A stretch of 64,000 bases of DNA from Fibrobacter sp. UWR3 (GTDB taxonomy: Bacteria; Fibrobacterota; Fibrobacteria; Fibrobacterales; Fibrobacteraceae). Both the position numbers and the translations under genes were made by a program. The stretch spans positions 186,001 to 250,000 of the forward strand of contig NZ_FRCW01000002.1 in NCBI RefSeq assembly GCF_900143055.1, in the 5' to 3' direction. Positions 30,575 to 59,166 of this stretch are shown piece after piece. The notes beneath the pieces were generated by a model, which did no database searches, was not told the DNA's origin, and saw only the letters and a program-made list of their open reading frames with translations. How positions within the stretch are numbered: the first letter of the stretch is position 1; every line of letters starts with the position of its first letter.

Positions 30575-30575
30575 C

Positions 30576-30605
30576 GTCATCCCCGCGTAGGCGGGGATCT
30601 TTTTA
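30576..30605 (+). repeat. Palindromic element acting as terminator (ppx / rlmI)
   Basis: gtcatccccgc-gtag-gcggggatc: 8-bp perfect stem atccccgc / gcggggat followed by ttttt. A longer relative is inside rlmI (31135-31211), and the same type of hairpin ends the tkt gene (34598-34633). Confidence 0.75.
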
Positions 30606-31658
30606 CAATTCCACGAGCGTCGCGACGAGGCAAGAATCCTTCGTAGCGCCGCTACCTGCAAAATCGATATCCTGCCCGCGCTTCCAAGCAGTGCGGGCTT
30701 TTTCGTGAACCGACCTGACGGCGGCAAGCACGTCACGCGCGAAGGTGTCGAGCGCGAACTCGCTGTAATTGGAACTCACCATGATGAAGGCTCCCGCGTT
30801 CAGGAGCGCCGCACATTCCGAGACGAGCGGCATCAAATGTTCCCGCACGTTGAAGTTGAACCCCTTGAAGCGCGCGAAACTCGGCGGGTCGAGCACGATA
30901 CCATCGAACTTGAGTCCCTTCTTTGCAGCCCAGCGCACATATTCGAGCGCATTCCCGCGGAAAAATTCACCGGGGCGCAGGTCGAGCCCGTTCAGCGCGT
31001 AGTTTTCGCGGCCCTTGTCGAGAATCTTCCCGCTGATGTCGGCGTTCGTGGCGACTGCGGCACCCCCGAGGCGCGCGTGCACCGAGAAACTGCACGTATA
31101 GCTGAAGAGGTTCAGGAACCGCGGGCCTCCACTTGTCATCCCCGCGCAGGCGGGCGGACAGCACTTAACAACTTGTTGTTTAGTGCGCATGGCCACCAAG
31201 GTGGGGATCTTCTTTGAACCTTCGCCAGTCATCGCGCGGAAGCGGTCTTCCACCTCGAGGCGCACGTGCCTCATGTCGAGGAACAGCCCCGGATTGACGG
31301 TATCGAGCAAGTCCACATGGAAGCGCGCGTTGCCTTCGCGTACCGTACCTACGGCCGCATCGCGGGTCCCGAACGCTACCTCCATGGGCGCGTTCTCAAG
31401 CGACTTGCCCGAACGGGAAAGCCTCTCCTTCACGATGATGCACGCGGGGTTGAACATCGCGGCCACCGCATCCACGAACTCGCGGCGACGCGGGAGCATC
31501 TCCGGCCCAAAGAACTGCACCTGCAAGCGGTCGCCGAAGCGGTCGAGCGTAAGCCCCGGGAATCCGTCGGCGGCTCCATTTACAATGCGATAAGCGTCCG
31601 TCACCTCGAACAGCGACGCACGCTTTTCAAATGCAGTCCTAAGTAAATTCTTCATCAT
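30603..31658 (-). CDS. rlmI: Class I SAM-dependent rRNA methyltransferase (RlmI-like) with in-frame repeat insertion
   Basis: A 351-residue RlmI/RlmK-type 23S rRNA cytosine-C5 methyltransferase. N-terminal PUA-like/EEHEE region (FEVTDAYRIVNGAADGFPGLTLDRFGDRLQVQFFG), then the Rossmann core: FLNLFSYTCSFSVHARLGGA (SAM site), NADISGKILDKGRENYALNGL, FDGIVLDPPSFARF (catalytic motif) and a C-terminal strand. Between FRAMTGEG and PRFLNLF about 30 residues (KIPTLVAMRTKQQVVKCCPPACAGMTSG) have no counterpart in the family; they are encoded by a palindromic repeat (31135-31211) in frame. The start MM is likely either Met. Convergent with ppx across a terminator hairpin. Confidence 0.9.
   Translation of the reverse strand: MMKNLLRTAFEKRASLFEVTDAYRIVNGAADGFPGLTLDRFGDRLQVQFFGPEMLPRRREFVDAVAAMFNPACIIVKERLSRSGKSLENAPMEVAFGTRDAAVGTVREGNARFHVDLLDTVNPGLFLDMRHVRLEVEDRFRAMTGEGSKKIPTLVAMRTKQQVVKCCPPACAGMTSGGPRFLNLFSYTCSFSVHARLGGAAVATNADISGKILDKGRENYALNGLDLRPGEFFRGNALEYVRWAAKKGLKFDGIVLDPPSFARFKGFNFNVREHLMPLVSECAALLNAGAFIMVSSNYSEFALDTFARDVLAAVRSVHEKARTAWKRGQDIDFAGSGATKDSCLVATLVEL
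31135..31211 (-). repeat. Palindromic repeat inserted in frame in rlmI
   Basis: Outer arms gtcatcccc and gtggggatc flank internal segments including acaacttgttgt and a ccacc / ggtgg hairpin. The 30576 hairpin has the same outer sequence. The insert keeps the reading frame and contains no stop codon in the rlmI frame. Confidence 0.75.
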
Positions 31659-59004: not shown

Positions 59005-59166
59005 GCGAGCGTTCTCCCGTGAGCCGTAGGCGACTCGTATCAACGAGTCGTCGCAGGCGACCTTTGGACACTTGCGCTTTAGCGCTTAGTGTACATGGCC
59101 ACCTTTAGGTGGGAGCGAGCGCAAACCGGAGCGATTTAACACCCTAGTTTAGCGCGAGCGGTCTCA
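59005..59166 (-). repeat. Module with hairpins after argG
   Basis: Read on the minus strand: gagaccgctcgcgctaaac, ctccggtttgcgctcgct, small hairpins ccacc / ggtgg and gcgct-rich, then cgactcgt / acgagtcg (59031-59050) with loop TGAT, then cggctcacggg. The conserved boxes and stem are as in the recO-panB array, in opposite orientation. Confidence 0.8.

Follow-up and report, generated by a model that had tools for sequence, protein, structure and literature searches.

The 64,000-nucleotide window analysed here, a stretch of contig NZ_FRCW01000002.1 of Fibrobacter sp. UWR3, carries on its minus strand (30603..31658) an rlmI-like gene encoding a class I SAM-dependent methyltransferase of 351 aa. 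The protein matched PF10672 with 74.9 bits, against a cut-off of 27. None of the NCBIfam equivalog models reached its cut-off for this protein (the best scored 118 versus 466 bits), and the name rlmI is approximate because these models were matched only far below their cut-offs. Classical RlmI has an N-terminal PUA domain, which seems to be missing here, since the NCBIfam matches in the N-terminal part of the protein begin near model position 80. A stand-alone REP copy lies just outside the gene on the plus strand (30576..30599), with a CGTC tag at 30575-30578 and TTTTT following. Inside the gene, a 75-bp composite repeat (31135..31209, minus strand) is read in frame as (K)IPTLVAMRTKQQVVKCCPPACAGMT. 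The initial annotation had described an in-frame palindromic insertion in the rlmI linker, composite in build and with outer arms gtcatcccc/ggggatc shared with the hairpin at 30576-30599, and the analysis confirmed each of these points. The extent given there, 31135-31211, was right at its start; the repeat stops at 31209. The coding signal flanks the element on both sides, at 0.45 and 0.59 in a hexamer model whose training set, long open frames, came from these same loci, so that model and data are not independent. The linker of the protein comprises 51 residues, compared with 20 in the repeat-free orthologue G081, a gain of 31 residues that is close to the thirty originally proposed; linker length varies widely across the genus, also where repeats are absent. 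The insert sits in a connector of four to six residues directly before the SAM-motif strand, because the alignments with solved relatives break at this place, between residues 215 and 222 of 3c0k and between residues 212 and 217 of 3vse. A structure prediction for the window protein, made with one orthologue, reached a mean pLDDT of 36.5 and was not used for surface-loop placement.

On the coding strand, the 75-bp element reads GATCCCC, 51 bp and GCCTGCGCGGGGATGAC. After removal of the 51 bp, the remaining sequence is the 24-bp palindrome of 30576-30599, save for another loop base. The host REP is therefore represented by a 5' part (GATCCCC, 31203..31209, minus strand) and a 3' part (GCCTGCGCGGGGATGAC, 31135..31151, minus strand), both delimited by comparison with the REP-only orthologue L127, and the TGTC variant of the CGTC tag is present at 31134-31137 on the plus strand. 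Between these parts lies a 51-bp core of 17 codons (31152..31202, minus strand), which we call type I and which was delimited by the exact difference from L127 and by further copies; CC or CCC occurs at both of its junctions, so that its ends can be placed only to within 3 bp. The core contains two hairpins on the minus strand. P2 (CCAC-CTTG-GTGG, 31193..31204) takes two of its bases from the REP arm, and P3 (31161..31186) consists of a near-invariant foot, GCACU/AGUGC, an A.A mismatch and a variable, covarying upper stem, flanked by the near-invariant motifs CCAUGC and UGUCCG. Both gains in rlmI, that of the REP and that of the core, are multiples of three and free of stops in the frame used; therefore the protein was lengthened, not broken. 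The insert is presumably translated, including the stretch KQQVVKCCPPACAGMTSG.

The outer repeat belongs to a large family. The 24-bp palindrome had 106 matches in the genome with up to 2 mismatches (41 forward and 65 reverse), the reversed control having 0 and 0, and many of the 106 copies showed compensating changes in both arms. With these counts and the 14 strong copies of the inner part, the repeat is not a chance pattern. The hairpin at 30576, originally taken for a terminator, is thus a copy of a genome-wide REP family, even if GGGGATCTTTTT could also terminate transcription. The tags given above are those of CGTC-1 REPs, the TGTC variant having been described for CGTC REPs in the accessible part of PMC3733652. 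The 8-bp stem starts with AT and closes a 4-nt loop (ATCCCCGC-GTAG-GCGGGGAT, within 30576-30599), as in CGTC-1. The 3-nt tail, mostly CCA in that class, is CTT after the stem at both window copies; the CCA tail is ascribed there to 'most' CGTC-1 REPs, not to all (PMC3733652). As far as this source could be consulted, the outer repeat agrees with CGTC-1 in tag, stem and loop but differs in the tail; it is a new member of the known in-frame palindromic repeats, in a phylum that has no entry in the paper, and no dedicated transposase is known for CGTC REPs of other bacteria (PMC3733652). Three of the 30 REP loci examined in the own genome (L093, L096 and L097) held core-less short REPs with the coding signal on both sides; L093 resembles BirA by eye.

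The linker was read in 46 genomes, 44 of them from the genus (the gene was present in 76 genus genomes) and two from the same order. The REP alone was found in three (G084, G047 and G018), the REP with the core in one, the own genome, and neither in the remaining 42. The comparison with relatives that the initial annotation had proposed thus showed the whole segment in one of the 46 genomes and in no other genome examined. What had been regarded as one palindromic insertion was indeed an insertion, though not a single event, as the outer REP is also present in G018, G047 and G084, and the inner 51 bp in the own genome only. G084 matched locus L127 of the F. succinogenes MAG RUG14609 at 100% over the whole protein. 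In the alignment of the window with L127, the element differs by exactly 51 bp. A 287-column tract around it (alignment columns 435-721) contained 1 mismatch in 236 aligned positions, as opposed to 95 in 769 (12%) in the rest of the gene, which shows a recent exchange of the site by homologous recombination between the own and RUG14609 lineages. The core is the sole large difference that has arisen since the exchange of the tract. In a protein tree of the 46 genomes, the four REP-bearing rlmI genes were not united, requiring 4 changes, of which at least 3 were forced, no better than with shuffled labels. This tree gave no support to the idea that the REP in rlmI had one vertical origin. Such a pattern would be expected if the site moved by recombination or underwent loss and gain, and it counts against a simple vertical story. 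Recombination explains the pair of the own genome (G000) and G084; for G018 and G047, the REP must have been inherited and lost in other lineages, exchanged again or acquired separately.

A search for filled and empty pairs yielded many repeat-driven false pairs, and only pairs with homologous flanks, among those listed, were used. A second orthologous pair with REP only and with REP and core was found (L160, with the core, versus the own-genome loci L045/L252, with the REP only), again 51 bp apart. The comparison of L041 with own-genome L111-L113 also showed a core-less REP, the overall length difference of 32 bp being blurred by repeated REPs.

The search of the own genome with the element returned 14 long matches and one partial match, besides REP-only matches. 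A covariance model (R1) built from 84 distinct cores gave 29 matches in the own genome at E ≤ 0.01, comprising 14 at 70 bits or more, one at 48.7 bits and 14 at 31-40 bits. Across the genus, matches at E ≤ 1e-4 were present in 73 of 80 genomes. Across the phylum, 77 of 167 genomes were positive, namely these 73 and four from two further genera of the family. When a genome collection was scanned for an exact pattern, at least 120 stretches with the core were found; among the 80 matches listed, 79 were from Fibrobacter or Fibrobacterales, and the only one outside Fibrobacteraceae was on a contig of a MAG labelled Treponema. This single copy (L128) lies on a 4.6-kb contig, which may represent a transfer or a mis-binned Fibrobacter contig. 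The same pattern scan of viral contigs, in search of a phage or viral home, gave 0 matches. Altogether, 147 distinct core copies were extracted from the loci and divided by a text rule into a REP class of 85 and another class of 62, a crude division that missed some REP-armed copies (e.g., L040 and L063). The core was found in REPs with differing loop sequences and in other palindromic arms, in one case (L177) without clear arms. The insertion sites varied among copies, and many lay within other repeats. Literature searches, with most subscription papers beyond their reach, returned no description of these Fibrobacter elements.

The structure of the core is conserved. Across the 84 cores, 18 columns were invariant, and these include most positions of the single-stranded CCAUGC and UGUCCG motifs and some of the P3 foot. 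Over the whole P3 hairpin, 91.5% of the cells were paired compared with 81.5% in shuffles, and 99 cells had changed on both sides versus 39.6 in shuffles, none of 500 shuffles reaching so high a count. P3 scored 0.282 for covariation, whereas no slid register exceeded 0.121; the number of further pair types (11) was not above that of shuffles (11.6). A P2 stem of at least 4 bp could form in 131 of the 144 copies; with shuffled sequence the share was 21.5%. In L085, L090, L188 and L214, the P2 stem CCAC/GTGG was replaced by UCCCC/GGGGA, a compensatory change of the whole stem. Folding of the single core copy gave z values of −2.5 (RNA) and −2.9 (DNA). No Rfam family scored above its gathering threshold for the core, and the matches at E ≤ 10 near the element were all far below their cut-offs.

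The 14 matches of 31-40 bits in the own genome (L287-L300) corresponded to a related, type II core, CCACCTAAAGGTGGCCATGTACACTAAG...AAGTGTCCAAAGG. One of these is intergenic in the window (59065..59112, minus strand; 37.7 bits with R1) and was delimited from the alignment of type II copies. Type II cores lay mostly inside a longer common repeat, GACCGCTCG...GGCTCAC, and in one case (L295) within different palindromic arms. The base pair adjoining CAC/GTG differs between the core types (G-C, A-U and C-G). A third element, CCCCAAAGAGGATAACTCTACTA...AGTATCGTATA, occurred in seven distinct copies among the loci examined. It was located inside the P3 stem of the core in G003 and G020 (L242, about 684-780, and L243, about 686-780), next to the core within the REP part in L044 (own genome) and L137, and also in another hairpin; one copy holds a further hairpin in its own loop. 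By eye, its architecture is that of the core: a 5' hairpin is followed by a fixed motif, a stem in which an A is bulged, and another fixed motif on the 3' side.

The in-frame test with the hexamer model was applied to the 133 of the 147 core copies that had at least 330 bases on both sides. In 17 of the 133, the coding signal was present on both sides in one frame that stayed open through the element. The insertion in rlmI, called a clear case of coding insertion in the initial annotation, is such a case, though not an isolated one. One copy (L077) had coding sequence on both sides and a stop inside the core. With 220 of 690 frames open in the remaining copies, 17 open copies out of 18 correspond to P = 4.6e-8 if copies are independent, and this independence is incomplete, L122 and L237 lying in homologous TonB-receptor genes. 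The 17 copies used four kinds of frame (8, 5, 3 and 1 copies), and two further copies (L045 and L183) look like frameshifting insertions. The 51-bp length class accounted for 16 of the 17 cores in genes, compared with 92 of 116 elsewhere. Random 80-nt windows from the same loci passed the coding test in 1128 of 1876 cases versus 17 of 133 for the cores. Core copies strongly avoid genes, where they are several times rarer than random positions, and therefore most insertions into genes were presumably removed.

The Pfam hosts of the in-frame cores included TonB receptors, a TrmB-like methyltransferase, a DEAH helicase, PP-loop TilS-like proteins (two sites), RsmB, a glycosyltransferase, an RlmL-like protein, a periplasmic binding protein, a RluA-like synthase, an ABC exporter ATPase and a DUF4329 protein, where we take TilS, RluA and TrmB as labels for the matched Pfam families. 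No Pfam family was matched at 1e-5 in L073, L236 and L228. As a raw count, RNA-modification enzymes made up 7 of the 17 host genes. The other internal in-frame core of the own genome resides in the TrmB-like gene (PF02390), likewise directly before the SAM motif. At this site, the relative G060 has SASHT and other relatives have repeat-like inserts, as judged by eye. In the corresponding linker of L331 and its orthologues L333, L334, L335 and L338, differing repeat-like coding inserts were seen in several relatives. The TrmB-like linker may be a hotspot like that in rlmI. TilS-like genes of different Fibrobacter (L235, L173 and L198) had the core at two different sites, and L173 contained several other repeat-like coding inserts too. 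REPs have also been noted in tRNA pseudouridine synthase genes in the accessible part of PMC3733652.

The observed core family, its conserved structure, the orthologous sites with the REP alone or with REP and core, and the in-frame copies are accompanied here by a proposed history, to which we assign a probability of roughly 0.78: two small hairpins entered the rlmI-like gene, one nested in the other, and the core is a non-autonomous mobile element moved in trans. A CGTC-type REP hairpin, which together with some flanking bases amounts to 42 bp, would first have entered the connector that joins the N-terminal domain to the SAM-binding strand. The resulting REP site would be the one visible in four lineages, its 287-column tract having recombined between the own and RUG14609 lineages. 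The 51-bp structured element would then have inserted at one fixed REP position, GATCCCC^GCC. The folded single strand of the core would be recognised by a trans-acting mover, a suggestion made because the foot and the internal loop are conserved in sequence and the stems by pairing. No clear target duplication was seen at the core, the CC or CCC at both junctions being uninformative. For comparison with MITEs, which have terminal inverted repeats and a target site duplication, the core thus offers these bases and ambiguous ends.

It could be argued that the whole 75-bp composite is a single transposable unit, similar to the Rickettsia palindromic elements (RPEs), that entered rlmI in one step. 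REP-armed copies do share arms and core, two copies of the own genome, L002 and L004, match that of the window at 100% identity over 77-79 bases, and at the TrmB-like site no REP-only relative was found at the exact place among the 15 loci listed (14 relatives and the own genome). At the exact rlmI site, however, REP-only orthologues exist, one of them otherwise nearly identical, which refutes a one-step entry there unless RUG14609 lost exactly the core, and the core also occurs in several other kinds of arms and, in L177, without clear ones. We regard such a unit as very doubtful in general, although it may hold for some other copies. The loss just mentioned is an explanation in itself, as the core might have been gained in a common ancestor and precisely excised in RUG14609, leaving the REP. 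The element would then be able to excise cleanly. The pair differs by exactly 51 bp, and two sequences alone give no polarity, but at this site G047 and G018 have the REP alone, so that gain in the own lineage takes one event and excision two. Excision is accordingly quite improbable, and we infer that the direction at rlmI was gain of the core. It is hardly credible that an assembly artefact or a decaying gene produced the pattern: repeats are prone to misassembly, but this copy lies within a 465-kb contig and related states occur in independent assemblies, and decay is at odds with the intact frame, the PF10672 match above its cut-off and an orthologue of 92% identity.

The near-invariant internal loop with covarying stems, together with the location of most copies outside coding sequence, would also suit a core that is primarily a functional RNA, cis-regulatory or protein-binding, spread by its usefulness and found in genes by accident. 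The lack of an Rfam match at the gathering threshold, with the E ≤ 10 matches far below their cut-offs, and the sites that differ between copies, many of them inside other repeats, make this unlikely, if still worth some weight. As to the mover, hairpins with a stem mismatch resemble the targets of Y1 enzymes, and a Y1_Tnp match was present in 20 of 61 genus genomes, so that an IS200/IS605-type (Y1) transposase of the RAYT kind could be considered for both the REPs and the core. A profile search for Y1_Tnp gave 0 matches in the own genome, however, and its presence elsewhere is unrelated to the number of cores (G073 has 29 core matches but lacks Y1, and G076 has one Y1 but lacks the core). The GTAG tag is absent as well, and CGTC REPs, as far as PMC3733652 is available, are likewise without a dedicated transposase. 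There is little likelihood that such an enzyme is responsible, and the RAYT explanation was dropped after the Y1_Tnp searches.

The history preferred above, nested entry of REP and core, may be part of something larger. As a tentative reading, possible rather than probable, Fibrobacteraceae would harbour an undescribed superfamily of minimal, gene-less mobile hairpins of about 50 nt, which insert in folded single-stranded form into hairpins belonging to other repeats. Their shared architecture would comprise a 5' hairpin, an unpaired motif that is fixed, a stem in which an A is bulged or mismatched, and a 3' motif that is again fixed, and the order of nesting would run from REP through core and third element to the further hairpin seen in one copy. 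The length of the commonest unit, 51 nt, would allow passage through genes in frame and lead to longer linkers. The mover might be an enzyme of a new kind, or else the host might supply the process, for instance template switching at hairpins.

Protein-coding palindromes have so far been regarded mainly as a feature of Rickettsia and a few REP-rich species, to which Fibrobacter adds a rumen and gut lineage. Here, the states before and after insertion are present in the same gene of living relatives, and a relative chronology of the layers can be drawn up, from the REP through recombination at the site to the core. The mover can be sought for a defined unit of 51 bp whose landing site is fixed. 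The enzymes with natural insertions of 17 codons, which include methyltransferases, a pseudouridine synthase, a tRNA lysidine synthetase and others, offer material for studying how proteins take up junk sequence.

Among known systems, the small mobile double-hairpin elements of fungal mitochondria have hairpins inserted among them, as the core has; they differ in being mitochondrial and, as far as we know, bear no sequence relation to the core. REP/RAYT systems and REPINs are likewise small multi-copy hairpins, whereas the Fibrobacter repeats (30575-30599 and 31134-31209) have no GTAG tag and the own genome has no Y1 transposase. RPEs (Ogata et al. 2000, 2002) are repeats that occur in frame within conserved genes as well as in intergenic regions, and two accounts give their length as 105-146 bp and as about 150 bp (PMC2229807, PMC10969869, in the parts available). 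The resemblance lies in short palindromes with open frames that occur both in frame in conserved genes, as do 17 of the 133 core copies, and between genes; in contrast to RPEs, as these are described, the Fibrobacteraceae core of 51 bp is nested in a separate 24-bp REP, has a conserved internal loop and takes part in deeper nesting of hairpins. According to the accessible text of PMC3733652, CGTC-1 REPs include RPE-6 and Neisseria dRS3. The outer repeat shares with them the AT-starting 8-bp stem, the 4-nt loop, the CGTC/TGTC tag and the intragenic copies; no dedicated transposase is known for them, and in the own genome the Y1_Tnp profile had no match. Section 7 of that paper describes REPs inside other palindromes, and thus palindrome-in-palindrome nesting, but, in the text available, not the core family of Fibrobacter, a name with 0 occurrences there. 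ISPpu9 is an insertion sequence that targets REPs (PMC8450116, as far as available) and resembles the core as a second mobile element with REPs as landing sites; it carries a transposase gene, whereas the 51-bp core has no gene at all. In-frame palindromic repeats are thus already known from Rickettsia RPEs and, for several species, from GTAG and CGTC REPs (PMC3733652, in the part consulted), and the new part is a nested core family, conserved in structure, that uses REPs as landing sites.
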